The translations under genes and the position numbers were made by a program. From Catellatospora vulcania (lineage in GTDB: Bacteria; Actinomycetota; Actinomycetes; Mycobacteriales; Micromonosporaceae), in the NCBI RefSeq assembly GCF_009720385.1, contig NZ_WARX01000020.1, positions 186,001 through 250,000 on the forward strand: 64,000 bases of DNA, in the 5' to 3' direction. Positions 5,935-15,681 of this stretch are shown here, piece after piece (positions within the stretch are counted from its first letter, which is position 1; each line of letters begins with the position of its first letter). The notes under the pieces were generated by a model that worked only from the letters and a program-made list of their open reading frames with translations, did no database searches and had not been told where the DNA came from.

Positions 5935-6678
5935 GTGCACCCCCGATCTGTTCGCGACGCGGCCCGGGAACTCCACCACGCCGGCCTCACCGTCGCCGAG
6001 GTCTCCCGCCAGCTGGATCTGCGCTACCGGACGGTCTGGGAATGGTGCAACAGACCTATGCCCACCGACGACGTGGCGCAGCGGTGTCCGCGCTGCCAGG
6101 ACCCGCCGCGACCACCCGACGATCCCGCCGCGTATGCGTACCTGCTGGGGCAGTACCTCGGCGACGGCCACGTGTCGCTCACCGCCCGCGTTCCGGTGCT
6201 CCGGATCGCGTGCGCCGACGCCTATCCGGGCATCATGGACGACTGCGAGCAGGCGATGCTGGCGGTGCTGGCGCGGCGGGTCTCCCGCGTCCGTGCGATC
6301 GGGTGCACCACCGTGCAGAGCGTCGCCAAGCATTGGCCGTGCCTGTTGCCGCAGGCCGGCCCAGGCAGGAAGCACGAGCGGCGCATCGAGCTGACGGGAT
6401 GGCAGCAGGAGGTCGTCACCGCCGTGCCCGGATTGTTCGCCCGCGGGCTGTTCCACTCCGACGGGTGCCGGGCCGTCAACCGCATCGTCAAGGCCGGGAA
6501 GACCTACGAGTACCCCCGCTACCTGTTCGCCAACGAGTCCACGGACATCCTCGCGCTGTGCGGCTGGGCGCTGGACCTGCTCGGCGTGGCCTGGCGGCTG
6601 AACCGCCGCAACTCGCTGTCCGTGGCCCGCCGCGACGCCGTCGCCCGGCTCGACGAGCATGTCGGCCCGAAGTCCTGA
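5935..6678 (+). CDS. HTH plus LAGLIDADG homing-endonuclease-like protein
   Basis: About 247 residues. The N-terminal 40 look like a resolvase-type helix-turn-helix (RSVRDAARELHHAGLTVAEV then YRTVWEWCN). A CxxC follows at 51-54. Two LAGLIDADG-like motifs are visible: LLGQYLGDG (about 70-78) and GLFARGLFHSDG (about 166-177), each with the acidic residue expected at a nuclease site. This is the layout of single-chain homing endonucleases, often annotated in actinomycetes as regulators. It starts about 50 bases after the tRNA-like gene. The start is uncertain: GTG at 5935 is chosen by the HTH, with no clear ribosome site. Confidence 0.75.
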   Translation: MHPRSVRDAARELHHAGLTVAEVSRQLDLRYRTVWEWCNRPMPTDDVAQRCPRCQDPPRPPDDPAAYAYLLGQYLGDGHVSLTARVPVLRIACADAYPGIMDDCEQAMLAVLARRVSRVRAIGCTTVQSVAKHWPCLLPQAGPGRKHERRIELTGWQQEVVTAVPGLFARGLFHSDGCRAVNRIVKAGKTYEYPRYLFANESTDILALCGWALDLLGVAWRLNRRNSLSVARRDAVARLDEHVGPKS

Positions 6679-11967: not shown

Positions 11968-12390
11968 TCACGCGGCCGCTCGGCGGGGCCGGTTGAGCAT
12001 GGCGCTGATCTCGGTGCGGCGCGCGTGGCGCTGGGCCTCGCGCAGCCCGGTGACGTACTCCATGAGTTCGGCCTTGGCCTGCGGGTCGAGGTCGGACTGC
12101 AGGATCGGCGTCATCTCCTCGTCGGATTCGTGGGTTTTCACGTTGGCGGCCGCGGTCAGGGCGTTGACCACGTCGTCGCCGAGCGCCTCGGCGACGCGGC
12201 GCACCGAGCCGACGGTCACCGACTCGCCGCCGTCCCGGATCCAGTCGAAGATCGTCTGCCGGGCGATGCCCGAGTCGCGGGCGAGTTTCGCGACGGACCA
12301 GCCCGGACGGCGGGTCATGCGGCGCAGATACCGACCCCACTCGGTGTCCGGCTGCGCTCTGTCCCCCGCTGCCGCTGATACGTCGCCCAT
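11968..12390 (-). CDS. XRE-type helix-turn-helix DNA-binding protein
   Basis: A 140-residue protein with an HTH at about residues 33-60 (GWSVAKLARDSGIARQTIFDWIRDG) and a following EALGDDVVNAL region, as in Cro/C1 regulators. The charged C-terminal third (LDPQAKAELMEYVTGLREAQRHARRTEIS) looks helical and may dimerise. It is divergent from the ECF sigma operon with about 430 bp between, so it could regulate that region; this is inference from position only. The ATG at 12390 is selected over an upstream GTG. Confidence 0.8.
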   Translation of the reverse strand: MGDVSAAAGDRAQPDTEWGRYLRRMTRRPGWSVAKLARDSGIARQTIFDWIRDGGESVTVGSVRRVAEALGDDVVNALTAAANVKTHESDEEMTPILQSDLDPQAKAELMEYVTGLREAQRHARRTEISAMLNRPRRAAA

Positions 12391-12518
12391 ACCTAACAGG
12401 CTACCGGGGACGTTCGAAACGCTGCCATCAACCACACGTCGTTAACAAGCGACGCATCTATGGGTAATGGCCTCGACGTGGGAAGCGTGATGAGCCGGTC
12501 GACGGTCACCCGTTAGAG

Positions 12519-12546
12519 GGAAATGGTCGTTTCCAAACGTCGTTAC
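12519..12546 (+). promoter_or_regulatory. Candidate ECF-type promoter
   Basis: GGAAAT (12519-12524), 16 bp, CGTTAC (12541-12546). This resembles the GGAAC-N16/17-CGTT pattern used by many ECF sigma factors and lies upstream of the sigma-factor operon, suggesting autoregulation. The leader would be about 270 bases. Confidence 0.45.
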
Positions 12547-12628
12547 TTGCGTCGTGCATGGACGACGGTTACCGTGACCTCCAGCGCCAGAACGACAGAT
12601 CCAGATGACGGTGCGTCGCCCGCAAACA

Positions 12629-12792
12629 ACGTGGTCCGCGCCCGGACCACGTCACCGTCTCGGGGTCGGCCGGCAGGCGCCGCAGCGGCACGCCGCTGCT
12701 CCCCCCTCGCGGTGTGGCCGTCCAAGGCACTGGGCGGCCACACCCGGGCCCGCCGGATCGTGAACCCCGGTCCGGCGGGCCCTCGATCGAGG
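12629..12792 (+). promoter_or_regulatory. Structured leader with three hairpins
   Basis: Three perfect inverted repeats precede the sigma-factor operon: 12629-12652 (10-bp arms ACGTGGTCCG, 4-base loop), 12711-12744 (10-bp arms GGTGTGGCCG, 14-base loop) and 12746-12782 (12-bp arms GGGCCCGCCGGA, 13-base loop). A 12-bp palindrome CCTCGATCGAGG overlaps the end of the last. They lie between the candidate promoter and the mini-ORF ribosome site and could form an attenuation device. Confidence 0.6.
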
Positions 12793-12821
12793 AATCCCCC
12801 CGCAGAAGAGGAGCCACCTAC

Positions 12822-12860
12822 GTGCTCATGACATGCAAGGGCCGGGTGTCGCACGGATGA
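12822..12860 (+). CDS. 12-codon upstream ORF coupled to the sigma factor
   Basis: GTG at 12822 follows AGAGGAG by about 9 bases, the best ribosome site in the region. The ORF encodes VLMTCKGRVSHG and stops at 12860, its TGA overlapping the ATG of the sigma-factor gene as ATGA. The sigma gene has no comparable ribosome site, so its translation probably depends on this mini-ORF. Confidence 0.5.
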   Translation: MLMTCKGRVSHG

Positions 12861-13486
12861 GCCCGACCGTCGTCACGCCGGAAGCCCGCACCGCCTACAC
12901 CGGGTCGGTGCCCGAGGAGCAGTCGTACGTATGGAACCTGGTCGAACGAGCGCAGCAGGGCGACACCGAGGCGTTCGGGAAGATCTACGCGCAGTACGCC
13001 CCCGCGGTCTTCCGATTCATCTACTTCCGGGTCCGGCACAGCCCCACCGCCGAGGACCTGACGTCCGACACCTTCCTGCGCGCCCTCAAGCGCATCGGCA
13101 GTGTGCGCTGGCAGGGCCGCGACTTCGCGGCCTGGCTGATCACCATCGCACGCCACATCGTGGCCGACTACTACAAGTCCGGCCGCTACCGCTTCGAGAT
13201 CAGCGGCGAGGTCCTCGACTTCGACCAGGAGGAGTTCAGCCTCGACGGCGCTCCGGACCGGGTCGCCATGGACCACGTGAACAACCTCGCGCTGCTCGCG
13301 GCGGTCAAGAAGCTCAACCCGTCCCAGCAGCGCTGCATCGCGCTGCGGTTCCTCGTGGGACTGTCCACCGCGGAGACCGCCCAGTCGATGGGCAAGAGCG
13401 AGGGCGCGGTCAAGGCCCTGCAGTGCCGCGCGGTGCGGATGCTCGGCCGCCTGCTGCCCGACGGATTCGCGGAGGGCAGGTCATGA
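12857..13486 (+). CDS. ECF-type RNA polymerase sigma factor
   Basis: A 209-residue group-4 sigma factor. Region 2 is at about residues 25-100 (WNLVERAQQGDTEAFGKIYAQY, FRFIYFRVRHSPTAEDLTSDTFLRALKRI, FAAWLITIARHIVADYYKS); region 4 is at about 140-200 (LNPSQQRCIALRFLVGLSTAETAQSMGKSEGAVKALQCRAVRML). It would direct RNA polymerase to a private promoter set. The ATG at 12857 overlaps the mini-ORF stop, and the stop overlaps the next gene as ATGA. No classical zinc-binding anti-sigma factor is adjacent; one of the downstream small proteins may fill that role. Confidence 0.92.
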   Translation: MSPTVVTPEARTAYTGSVPEEQSYVWNLVERAQQGDTEAFGKIYAQYAPAVFRFIYFRVRHSPTAEDLTSDTFLRALKRIGSVRWQGRDFAAWLITIARHIVADYYKSGRYRFEISGEVLDFDQEEFSLDGAPDRVAMDHVNNLALLAAVKKLNPSQQRCIALRFLVGLSTAETAQSMGKSEGAVKALQCRAVRMLGRLLPDGFAEGRS

Positions 13487-13944
13487 CGGTTTCGACCTCG
13501 TTCCTCTCCCTCTACACGGCGGCGGTGGCCGCGGTGAGCTTCTCCGCCACGCTGTTCCTGATGCGCGACCGGCTGACCCTGGTCGAGGAGGCGAAGTTGA
13601 TCCTGGACCGGGTCGACGACGCCGACGAGCAGTGGTGGGGCGCCGACGAGAGCCCGCAGACCGCGCGTCGGCGCGCGGTGGTGGGCTTCTGGCGCCGCGC
13701 CCTGAACCGGAGCCGACCGGGGGGATCCCGGTGGCGACCCACCGGCCCGGCCGGCGACCCGGTCCCTGCACCCCAGCCGACCGCGGTCGGGCAGGCCTCA
13801 CCGGTACGCCGGCCGGAGGCCGACCCCGAGACCACCGCGTACATCGAGGTGGTGCCGCCCTATCCGGCCGTGGACTACCACGGCAGGCACACCGCGACCG
13901 GGGCGTACCCGCAGGTCCCGTCGACCCGGCAGGCGTACCTGTGA
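13483..13944 (+). CDS. Membrane-anchored protein of unknown function in the ECF operon
   Basis: A 153-residue protein not recognised. Residues 5-25 form one hydrophobic segment (SLYTAAVAAVSFSATLFLM), followed by a charged helix (LTLVEEAKLILDRVDDADEQW), then a long Pro/Arg-rich, probably disordered tail ending in Tyr-containing motifs. Its ATG overlaps the sigma-factor stop and its stop overlaps the next GTG, so all three are translated together. Membrane anchor plus coupling make it a candidate membrane partner of the sigma factor, but no anti-sigma domain is visible. Confidence 0.8.
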   Translation: MTVSTSFLSLYTAAVAAVSFSATLFLMRDRLTLVEEAKLILDRVDDADEQWWGADESPQTARRRAVVGFWRRALNRSRPGGSRWRPTGPAGDPVPAPQPTAVGQASPVRRPEADPETTAYIEVVPPYPAVDYHGRHTATGAYPQVPSTRQAYL

Positions 13945-14258
13945 AACAACGTGCGTGGTGGCGGTGGCTGGCCCGGCTGTGCGACCGGGAGGCCATGCGG
14001 GCCGGGGTGGAGGTCAGCGCGCTGCGCTCGGCGCTGGTCGCCGAGGCCGTGCTCGCCCGGCGGGCCGAGGAACTCGCGCGGCGGGCCTGCCGGGAGCGTG
14101 ACCGCTACCGCGGTGAGGCGGTGGCGCTGCACGCCGAGCTGGCCGCGGTGCGCGACCTCCTTCCCAGCGGGGACGCCCGGTGGCCGGTCTGGACGGCCGA
14201 ACACCGGGGACCGTCCACCGGCGACAGGCCCGACACGAGGGAGCACGCCGGTGTCTGA
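13941..14258 (+). CDS. Small helical protein of unknown function in the ECF operon
   Basis: A 105-residue protein not recognised. It starts VKQRAWWRWLARLCDREAM and then forms an Ala/Arg/Glu-rich helix, probably coiled coil, at about residues 15-75 (LRSALVAEAVLARRAEELARRACRERDRYRGEAVALHAELAAV). The tail is polar. GTG at 13941 overlaps the previous stop (GTGA) and the end overlaps the BldC-like gene by 8 bp. The coiled coil suggests protein-protein contact within this operon. Confidence 0.78.
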   Translation: MKQRAWWRWLARLCDREAMRAGVEVSALRSALVAEAVLARRAEELARRACRERDRYRGEAVALHAELAAVRDLLPSGDARWPVWTAEHRGPSTGDRPDTREHAGV

Positions 14259-14589
14259 AGCCCCCACGCCCGTCCCCCGCCTGCCCGCACACGTGCGCGA
14301 GGTGGCGGTGCGCGCGTACGACGGCGACGAGCTGACCCCGCGGCTGGTGACGACGCTGGCCGCCGTCTACGCCGCGGGGCTGCGCGACGGGGCCGGCGTG
14401 CGCGTCGGCCGCCGCGACATGATGACCCCGGCCGAGGTGCTGGCACTGCTGCCGGTGGACCGCAAGACCGTCAAGCGCTGGGCCGACCGCGGCCTGCTGC
14501 GTGTCACCCGCACCGCCGGCGGGCACCGCCGGTATCTGCGCGAGGACGTCGCCGCTCTGCTGGTCAAGCACGGCTGGGTGCCACGCTGA
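14251..14589 (+). CDS. BldC-like MerR-type DNA-binding protein
   Basis: A 112-residue protein whose C-terminal half is a BldC-type winged helix (residues about 58-108): MTPAEVLALLPVDRKTVKRW, ADRGLLRVTRTAGGHRRY, then LREDVAALL. BldC is a small developmental regulator in streptomycetes that binds DNA cooperatively; this protein adds about 55 N-terminal residues. It starts with GTG at 14251, overlapping the previous gene by 8 bp. Encoding a BldC-like protein in an ECF sigma operon suggests a combined regulatory unit, perhaps developmental (inference). Confidence 0.85.
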   Translation: MSEAPTPVPRLPAHVREVAVRAYDGDELTPRLVTTLAAVYAAGLRDGAGVRVGRRDMMTPAEVLALLPVDRKTVKRWADRGLLRVTRTAGGHRRYLREDVAALLVKHGWVPR

Positions 14590-14600
14590 AGGAGTGGGTC

Positions 14601-14744
14601 ATGGCAACGTTGCTCTATCGCCGCAGGCACGGCCACACGCGGTTGCTGGGAATGCTGCTGCTGTTCGCCGAGGGCGTGATCTTCGGATTGGGCGTGTTCG
14701 TCTCGTTCGGAGTGTTCACGACCATGCTCGCCCTGGTTCATTGA
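14601..14744 (+). CDS. 47-residue membrane mini-protein
   Basis: ATG at 14601 follows AAGGAG by about 8 bases, 11 bp after the BldC-like gene. The product is a basic N-terminus (MATLLYRRRHGHTR) followed by a single long hydrophobic span of about 30 residues (LLGMLLLFAEGVIFGLGVFV and on), ending in VH. It is too short for standard ORF cut-offs, but the ribosome site, codon use and operon position support it. The function is unknown; it is the last gene of the operon. Confidence 0.7.
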   Translation: MATLLYRRRHGHTRLLGMLLLFAEGVIFGLGVFVSFGVFTTMLALVH

Positions 14745-15138
14745 TCAACACACAGTGATCGAGAACTACCCTGCGTAGTCTATTTTTGAAGGCAACTGCC
14801 CGATTCGATGTAACACCTCGTTAATGTGCATCGATGTCCGCTCACGCAGTCACTCACGGTGACGCACGGATCATCCGTTCATACGTTGTGATATCCGCAT
14901 TTTTAGACGTACCGTGCACGTGCGAATTGCAACATGCGTCTTCTTTGAATCGGTGATGTCCTCAGCGCCCGGAACCGATACGTCCGGATGATGGCGGGCT
15001 GACCTGCAGTCCACAATTCGGCGTCGTAAGTGAATTCGCTCTGTGTTACTAGCGCATCGGCGTCACTGGAGGCACGCTGAGTGTTCGTTCATTCGGCGCG
15101 TGCGCCCGGACGCCCGGCGGTCCCGGAAGGGAAGACAG
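14745..15138. other. AT-richer non-coding region after the ECF operon
   Basis: About 390 bases with no convincing gene and clearly lower GC than its surroundings (for example CTATTTTTGAAGG and CGCATTTTTAGACG). It probably holds the promoter of the membrane-protein gene at 15139. No terminator hairpin or named RNA could be recognised. Confidence 0.5.
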
Positions 15139-15681
15139 GTGATTGTCAAAGTCAAGAGCGGGGCTTTCTGGCTGTCGATTGTCGGCCTCTCCCTGGTCCT
15201 GGTCCTGGCGGCGTATCTCGTCGTCTGGCCGGCCGGCCAGGGAGTGAGTCGCGAGACCAGCGTGCTGGCCAGGGTGATAGCCGCGACGGCGATCGGTGTG
15301 GTGCTCATGCTCGCCGGCGCGGTGGCGCTGTCCAACCAGCATCTCGTGAACAAGTTGCACGAGGCGGAGACCCGGCAGCTGGCCCGTGACCACCAGCGCG
15401 GCGAGCACATGCGCATCGTGATCACGGCGCTGAGCGACATCGTCCAGCAGCTCGCCCAGTACGGCAAGACCCTGGAGGAGGCGGCCGGACGGGCCGTCAG
15501 CGGTGAGACTCCGCAGCTGCACGTGCGCGAGGACCTCGGCAAGCTCAGCGCGATGGTGGAGCTGCTGCGCGAGGACCAGGAGGAGCTGTTCGAGGTCGTG
15601 ACCCGGATGCAGGCCGACAATGTCACGGTCCTGCCGGTGCGCCGGGGCGACCCGAAGAGTCGCGGACCCGCCAGCCGCTGA
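15139..15681 (+). CDS. Two-pass membrane protein with coiled-coil cytoplasmic domain
   Basis: A 180-residue protein not assigned to a family. Two hydrophobic segments (about 9-32 FWLSIVGLSLVLVLAAYLVV and 43-65 RVIAATAIGVVLMLAGAVAL) are joined by a short loop. A soluble helical region follows (KLHEAETRQLARDHQ, DIVQQLAQYGKTLEEAAGRA, KLSAMVELLREDQEELFEVV), likely coiled coil. GTG at 15139 is chosen because GGAAGGGAAG precedes it; upstream starts would add a basic, non-conserved-looking stretch. It may be a small membrane scaffold or sensor. Confidence 0.8.
   Translation: MIVKVKSGAFWLSIVGLSLVLVLAAYLVVWPAGQGVSRETSVLARVIAATAIGVVLMLAGAVALSNQHLVNKLHEAETRQLARDHQRGEHMRIVITALSDIVQQLAQYGKTLEEAAGRAVSGETPQLHVREDLGKLSAMVELLREDQEELFEVVTRMQADNVTVLPVRRGDPKSRGPASR

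Follow-up and report, generated by a model that had tools for sequence, protein, structure and literature searches.

A mobile-element-type repressor as the candidate switch of a BldN-paralogue operon in Catellatospora

How might an actinomycete control an extra copy of a developmental sigma factor? The question is raised by a small operon in a 64,000-nucleotide (nt) stretch of the Catellatospora vulcania genome (Micromonosporaceae; genome size, 8.83 Mb), hereafter called the window. The operon encodes an extracytoplasmic function (ECF) sigma factor, a paralogue of BldN, and lies beside a divergent gene for a helix-turn-helix (HTH) protein whose relatives are found next to integrases. Genome comparison indicated that a repressor-type protein with 18-bp palindromes is the best-supported form of control, better than the ECF promoter and RNA structure put forward in a first-pass annotation of this DNA, and it appears rather probable that an element-type repressor switch controls the BldN paralogue.

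The operon lies on the + strand. It begins with a leader open reading frame (ORF) of 12 codons (12822..12860; GTG start) that has an AGAGGAG ribosome site 8 nt upstream, the sole good one upstream of the sigma gene. The sigma gene itself (12857..13486; ATG start) overlaps the leader ORF by ATGA and has no ribosome site of its own. Genes for a membrane protein (13483..13944), a coiled-coil protein (13941..14258), and a BldC-type MerR-like DNA-binding protein (14251..14589) follow, each overlapping the gene before it, and 11 nt after the last of them starts the gene for a 47-residue single-span membrane peptide (14601..14744; span assigned by eye); these genes are named below by their first coordinate. 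The first-pass annotation had described the same layout, overlaps included, and its coupled 12-codon ORF was found in all eight genomes that carry the operon. The encoded peptide reads VLM(T/S)(C/R/H)KGRVS(H/R)G, by translation in five of the eight genomes and from alignments in the other three, and a 6-nt deletion at locus L043 (L and G numbers are our labels for loci and genomes) retains the ATGA overlap. Since the frame is intact in all eight and the peptide has taken at least three amino-acid changes, beside one synonymous change, translational coupling is a likelier role for this ORF than a function of the peptide.

The sigma gene was present in 8 of the 11 Catellatospora genomes, at 93-100% identity. 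Gene order was kept in all eight, the window and seven others, and reads pyk, LLM, HTH, sigma, 13483, 13941, 14251, 14601, 15139, and gltD, so the operon drawn in the first-pass annotation is real and conserved. The five operon genes of the island genomes encode proteins with 67-98% identity to those of the window. In the other three genomes, LLM directly abuts gltD, everything from HTH through 15139 is missing as a block, and only 30-32% HTH matches were found. A tree of pyk and gltD placed the eight island genomes (support, 95) and the three non-island genomes (support, 97) in separate clades; thus, a single gain or a single loss accounts for the distribution. The comparison showed that the operon, the divergent HTH gene (11968-12435), and the membrane gene 15139 form an island, which is a genus-restricted unit. 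No description of this module was found in the open-licence literature.

The divergent gene (11968..12435, - strand; start GTG 12435 or ATG 12390) encodes an XRE-like protein. It accompanies the operon in all eight island genomes, and its best matches in PHROGs are transcriptional repressor families (E values of 2e-6 and 5e-6). A search that scored at most 10 candidates per genome revealed relatives in 25 of 354 genomes of the family, eight being island genomes, and no match was obtained in plasmids at an E value of 1e-5 or in phages at 1e-2. Thirteen relative loci from the 17 non-island genomes were compared, with G161, G189, G198, G340, and a second copy in G213 left out. An integrase or recombinase gene follows the HTH gene in 10 of these 13 loci (six of the tyrosine type and four of the serine type), and all 10 proteins were confirmed by a Pfam match. 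The island protein is homologous to these HTH genes beside integrases in Micromonosporaceae, and it is probably a repressor. At one relative locus, L209, the region divergent from the HTH gene contains, about 1.3-2.0 kb upstream of it, a coding sequence whose product looks GGDEF-like by eye.

Upstream of the HTH gene, the island carries three 18-bp palindromes with a 6-nt spacer, which we regard as operator candidates and list without strand. Candidate 1, CGTCGTTAACAAGCGACG (12437..12454), keeps its pattern in six of the eight genomes and is one base off at L044 and L045; candidate 2, CGTCGTGCATGGACGACG (12550..12567), keeps it in seven and is one base off at L039; candidate 3, CGTCGCCCGCAAACAACG (12614..12631), lies in the transcribed leader, fits only a relaxed pattern, and is identical in all eight. 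The palindrome as defined from the island, CGTCGY-N6-RYGACG, occurs twice on the + strand of the 64 kb, both times in the island, and 5 of the 13 relative loci have it within 350 nt before the HTH gene, against a mean of 0.03 loci and at most 1 in shuffles. The relaxed form, YGYYGY-N6-RCRRCR, gave 21 sites at 10 of the 13 loci, those of the ten best-scoring homologues (shuffle mean, 0.4; maximum, 3), with only 0 to 3 sites at each of the other spacers tried (0 to 12) and a background of 0.039 per 350 nt elsewhere in the relative loci. The three relaxed sites of the island compare with a mean of 0.03 in shuffles of 12391-12860, none of 500 of which reached two. Among the 10 palindrome-bearing loci, nine have an integrase. 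The tenth, L205 (genome G334; HTH domain at 6014-6386), has the upstream palindrome with no integrase seen nearby and is perhaps another domesticated copy. These data showed that the palindrome is common to the island and the HTH family. On this evidence the HTH protein very probably binds the palindromes.

Candidate 2 fills the spacer of a candidate sigma-A-type promoter, TTGCGT-N17-TACCGT (12547..12575, + strand; predicted start near 12582), which is present as TTGCG(T/A)-N17-TA(T/C)(C/G)GT in all eight genomes. Reading the relatives' sites in the sense of the divergent genes places TA 1-2 nt after the operator at 11 of the 21, in 9 of the 10 loci, and TTG directly before it at only 3 of the 21; thus, the -10 side is shared with the elements and the -35 side only with some of them. 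We consider a promoter at 12547 fairly likely. The island resembles the repressor-operator regions of actinomycete integrative elements in its HTH family, in its divergent-upstream 18-bp palindromes, and in the -10-like TA beside the operator; it differs from them in that no integrase was found in it and in that it precedes a chromosomal sigma operon, not element genes. An ECF promoter proposed near 12519 was rejected because its elements are altered in several of the eight genomes, with no match at L041, GTAAA at L042, and CGCC at the -10 position at L044 and L045. Of the sigma-control module proposed earlier, the gene order, structured leader, mini-ORF, membrane protein, and BldC-type factor held up, and main control by an ECF promoter and RNA gave way; the earlier account had also overlooked that the sigma factor is a BldN paralogue, that the HTH and 15139 genes belong to the island, and that the best-supported, repressor-type control lies outside the region it covered.

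The sigma factor scored 178.6 bits against the NCBIfam BldN model TIGR02952, below the cut-off of 206.45, and it is 67% identical to the genome's own canonical BldN, which scored 209.6 bits. A 34-sequence tree united the island sigmas in a single clade (support, 100) whose branch measured 0.62 substitutions per site, and this clade joined the four Catellatospora bldN genes (support, 67) within a Micromonosporaceae bldN group (86), all read as unrooted splits. The gene tree thus showed descent from bldN, and the island sigma is of BldN-type ancestry. The only solved chain matched at an E value of 1e-20 is 6dxo_A, an ECF sigma factor. The island and canonical proteins are almost identical in the region 4.2 helix (KSEGAVKALQCRAVR versus KNEGAIKALQYRAVR) and differ in the stretch before region 2.4 (VRWQGRDF versus FTWQGRDL). 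Both island and canonical genes have a partner gene directly downstream, as in the BldN/RsbN pair of Streptomyces; the canonical one encodes a DUF5667 protein, which, by position, we take to be RsbN-like. The island operon has no DUF5667 partner, has operon partners and upstream control of its own, and encodes a sigma factor about 100 N-terminal residues shorter: only 28 residues precede the motif VERAQQGD, versus 127 in the canonical copy (whose start was assumed), so that the long pro-region is lacking. Streptomyces BldN is produced as a proprotein, according to a title cited in PMC9205884.

A candidate target of this sigma factor is the last gene of the island. The 15139 gene (15139..15681, + strand) encodes a membrane protein with two spans, assigned by eye, and a helical part; it is present in all eight island genomes and, among 200 sampled family genomes, in eight, all of them island genomes. 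The 394-nt gap before it contains, in 8/8 genomes, two GNAAC-N17-CG(A/G)TG sites 119 bp apart: candidate A, GTAAC-N17-CGATG (14810..14836), and candidate B, GCAAC-N17-CGGTG (14929..14955), both on the + strand and both BldN-like. The form GNAAC-N17-CGNT occurs four times on the + strand of the window, two of them in this gap. In Streptomyces venezuelae, according to PMC4255298, rsbN has its own BldN-dependent promoter. We found GTAAC-N16/17-CGTT within 260 nt after the sigma stop codon at 17 of 24 bldN-type loci (L002, L017-L038, and L145; those without it are L024, L032, L034-L037, and L145 itself), and it is likely a conserved BldN-dependent promoter of the gene at the rsbN position. The candidate targets of the island sigma carry the same GNAAC-type -35 and another -10, and an unchanged -35 beside a changed -10 would agree with a region 4.2 that stayed the same and with the alteration seen before region 2.4. 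The form GNAACA-N15-TCGRTG has six sites in the whole genome, two of them in the island; since those two island sites supplied the motif, its genome-wide rarity is only supportive. When eight loci with the motif were inspected across the genus, two of them in the window's own genome, at least four (L149, L154, L156, and L167) lay inside long ORFs and no clear further target emerged. On balance, the 15139 gene is a probable target of the sigma factor.

Some other observations concern these promoters and their surroundings. A site GCAACAGGAC...TCGATG at L169 (1501-1527), with counterparts at G010:C10:34587 and G004:C16:47526, resembles the sigma promoter candidates; it is present in three Catellatospora genomes and in L169 lies outside the listed ORFs. 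Similarity between the leaders of the sigma and 15139 genes was not significant (33 of 300 shuffles reached the score). Near 15139, matches to a BldD-box consensus amounted to two with one mismatch and none exact in the intergenic region, and they were not used.

The steps would then be as follows. The HTH protein, a member of a mobile-element family, would bind the three 18-bp operators, shut off the sigma operon by occupying the spacer of the promoter at 12547-12575, and probably limit its own expression through operator 1. Upon derepression, transcription would yield a structured leader of about 240 nt. Ribosomes would load at the 12-codon ORF and, through ATGA coupling, go on to translate the shortened BldN paralogue, which would be made together with the membrane protein, the coiled-coil protein, the BldC-type DNA-binding protein, and the membrane peptide. 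The sigma factor would in turn transcribe the neighbouring 15139 gene from the two BldN-like promoters.

Several points weigh against this reading. To call the HTH protein a repressor is to rely on its gene context and on PHROGs matches that are weak. Some of the relatives' palindromes had already been viewed when the relaxed pattern was drawn, its 22 matches in the window mean that single matches are not rare, and the three weakest homologues among the 13 (L214, L215, and L216) have no palindrome. A stricter consensus scan missed the promoter-like element at 12547 and listed no sigma-70-type promoter there; this and the scarcity of the TTG side among relatives slightly lowered our confidence. 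The support of 67 for grouping the island sigmas with Catellatospora bldN is low, the sigma promoter motif was defined from two island sites whose -10 differs from that of the bldN-locus sites, and, of the four motif sites elsewhere in the genome, the two inspected both lie inside long ORFs. No integrase or recombinase was seen among the seven island proteins scanned, the other ORFs of the block being outside the scan, and the membrane and HTH proteins gave structure models of poor quality, with a mean pLDDT (predicted local distance difference test) of 59 and 55, respectively.

Among other explanations, the one that survives best is a classical sigma/anti-sigma pair, in which the 13483 membrane protein would act as a non-canonical anti-sigma factor that keeps the sigma factor at the membrane until a surface signal sets it free, with transcriptional control secondary. 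Helices of CnrY and RsbN bind sigma domains, as stated in PMC7406223. The 13483 gene overlaps the sigma gene by ATGA, its product combines a hydrophobic N-terminal helix with two predicted helices, and the canonical bldN is likewise followed by the gene at the rsbN position. The structure model of this product has a long helix (5-51), of which the first part appears by eye to be transmembrane, a second helix (58-76), and a disordered, Pro/Tyr-rich tail; a C-terminal segment near PPYPAVDYxGRHTATGAYPQVPS is almost invariant across the island genomes. In RsbN, the transmembrane helix does not come first, which is the opposite order to that of the 13483 product. Furthermore, the product has no Pfam or NCBIfam match (E of 0.1 or below), its model found no match in a fold search, and its best PDB sequence match has an E value of only 0.69, so that the first-pass remark that no known anti-sigma domain is visible was borne out. 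No RsbN-like anti-sigma gene was recognised beside the island sigma, and a highly diverged one is conceivable. Clear relatives of the 13483 product were confined to 8 of 354 family genomes (at most 10 candidates scored per genome); weak matches in 46 further genomes (E values of 1.8e-5 to 0.01) were discarded as low-complexity chance, and the protein was found in three Catellatospora records at 79-88% identity. A role for it as a membrane anti-sigma factor or tether is doubtful, and the pair as the main control is unlikely.

The remaining partners are conserved in the same eight genomes. The coiled-coil protein has a core conserved in 8/8 and a sole Pfam match, below the cut-off, and the 14601 peptide, also conserved in 8/8, has no match in the Pfam and NCBIfam scan (E of 0.1 or below). 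The 14251 product has a MerR-like HTH, invariant in the eight genomes, and its best NCBIfam match is the BldC profile NF033787; it differs from the BldC family in an N-terminal extension of about 55 residues, in its place in a sigma operon, and in a score (71.0 bits) below the family cut-off of 77. BldC-type matches to it occurred in 61 of 61 sampled family genomes and were full-length only in the sample's two island genomes; against phages, one short match was obtained. PMC6428758 describes BldC as both activator and repressor in S. venezuelae and its head-to-tail sites on AT-rich direct repeats as not predictable from sequence. Near the candidate sigma promoters, at 14920-15040, there are several AATT motifs, including a pair 18 bp apart; they match the loose site of BldC and might be used by the BldC-type protein of the operon.

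If the locus were instead a decayed integrative element, the sigma operon would be its former cargo and would still act in the regulation of the element, not in host development. Members of the HTH family belong to elements at 10 of the 13 loci examined, the block is cleanly present or absent, and Micromonospora plasmids, too, carry sigma genes of the BldN type. By annotation, an overlapping operon on such plasmids encodes a BldN-like sigma together with an Lsr2-type protein, a GGDEF protein, and two small proteins (L141, 5929-8546, and L142, 5863-8435, on pVMKU and a Verrucosispora plasmid). These pVMKU-like operons resemble the island in that a BldN-like sigma comes first in an overlapping operon, but their partners are different and in a tree they are not the closest relatives of the island sigma, although that tree was rooted on the plasmid genes and is hence uninformative about the placement of these genes. 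Moreover, the island sigma is nearer to chromosomal bldN (67%) than to the plasmid sigma genes (42-45%). A plasmid origin of the sigma factor was rejected: all 91 matching plasmid records fall below 60% identity, and among the best 15 of the 91, the top true plasmid reaches 43.8%, the row at 56.5% being an 11.9-Mb record. The conservation of the proteins in eight species and the lack of an integrase among those scanned also speak against decay, which makes this explanation quite unlikely.

The leader could itself be the main switch, as a ligand- or protein-sensing RNA (riboswitch or attenuator). The three hairpins that the first-pass annotation had noted (+ strand, within 12607..12782) were recovered at 12629-12652 (10 pairs), 12712-12743 (13 pairs), and 12746-12782 (15 pairs), together with a fourth at 12682-12699 (7 pairs) and an outer stem, 12607-12612/12654-12659. 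The leader has an unusually stable fold, with a z score of -4.71 for 12501-12860 (0 of 100 shuffles as stable) and of -5.76 for 12582-12830 (0 of 200), and 82-87% of the positions from 12557 to 12736 are identical in all eight genomes, like coding sequence. Over the eight genomes, 99.5% of 403 cells in the five stems are paired, with gaps on both arms of the stem at 12712 at L044 and L045. The hairpins are thus conserved, but the covariation looked for as a check is weak and barely above controls: the stems contain pairing-preserving single changes and one doubly changed pair, in one genome, a number that 51 of 500 shuffles reached, and RNAalifold reported another doubly changed pair outside the five stems, in two genomes. 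Hence, an RNA role is possible only, and an RNA-level effect of the hairpins has, in our estimate, somewhat less than an even chance. Some of the leader's conservation may have its cause at the DNA level, because the most conserved block includes operator candidate 3, which forms part of the invariant stretch. An Rfam scan of 12300-15200 gave two matches, both below the gathering score, and no U-tract terminator-like site was found; in the three genomes without the operon, the best leader match among the matches listed is 31-37 nt (E values of 8e-5 to 3e-4). A sensing RNA as the main switch is accordingly improbable. Least probable of all is the HTH protein as an activator of the sigma operon, since operator candidate 1 does lie upstream of the -35, but operators 2 and 3, in the spacer and downstream of the predicted start, respectively, occupy the usual positions of repression, and the protein would probably repress rather than activate.

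Taken together, these comparisons favor the repressor switch, and a more specific form of it is put forward tentatively: a domesticated lysogeny-type switch of an integrative element may run a duplicated developmental sigma factor, giving one Catellatospora clade a bistable, membrane-coupled BldN/BldC module for a lineage-specific developmental or envelope programme. Whether the island has a role in development is, on the sequence evidence, evenly balanced. The comparison has yielded an operator rule, YGYYGY-N6-RCRRCR, for the HTH family beside integrases in Micromonosporaceae. If the reading is true, it would represent a new way of wiring a developmental regulator, in which a mobile-element-type repressor switches an extra BldN copy that has lost its long N-terminus and usual partner, kept its -35 specificity, shifted its -10, and gained an element-type repressor. 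The evolution of new developmental switches in actinomycetes would thereby become testable.

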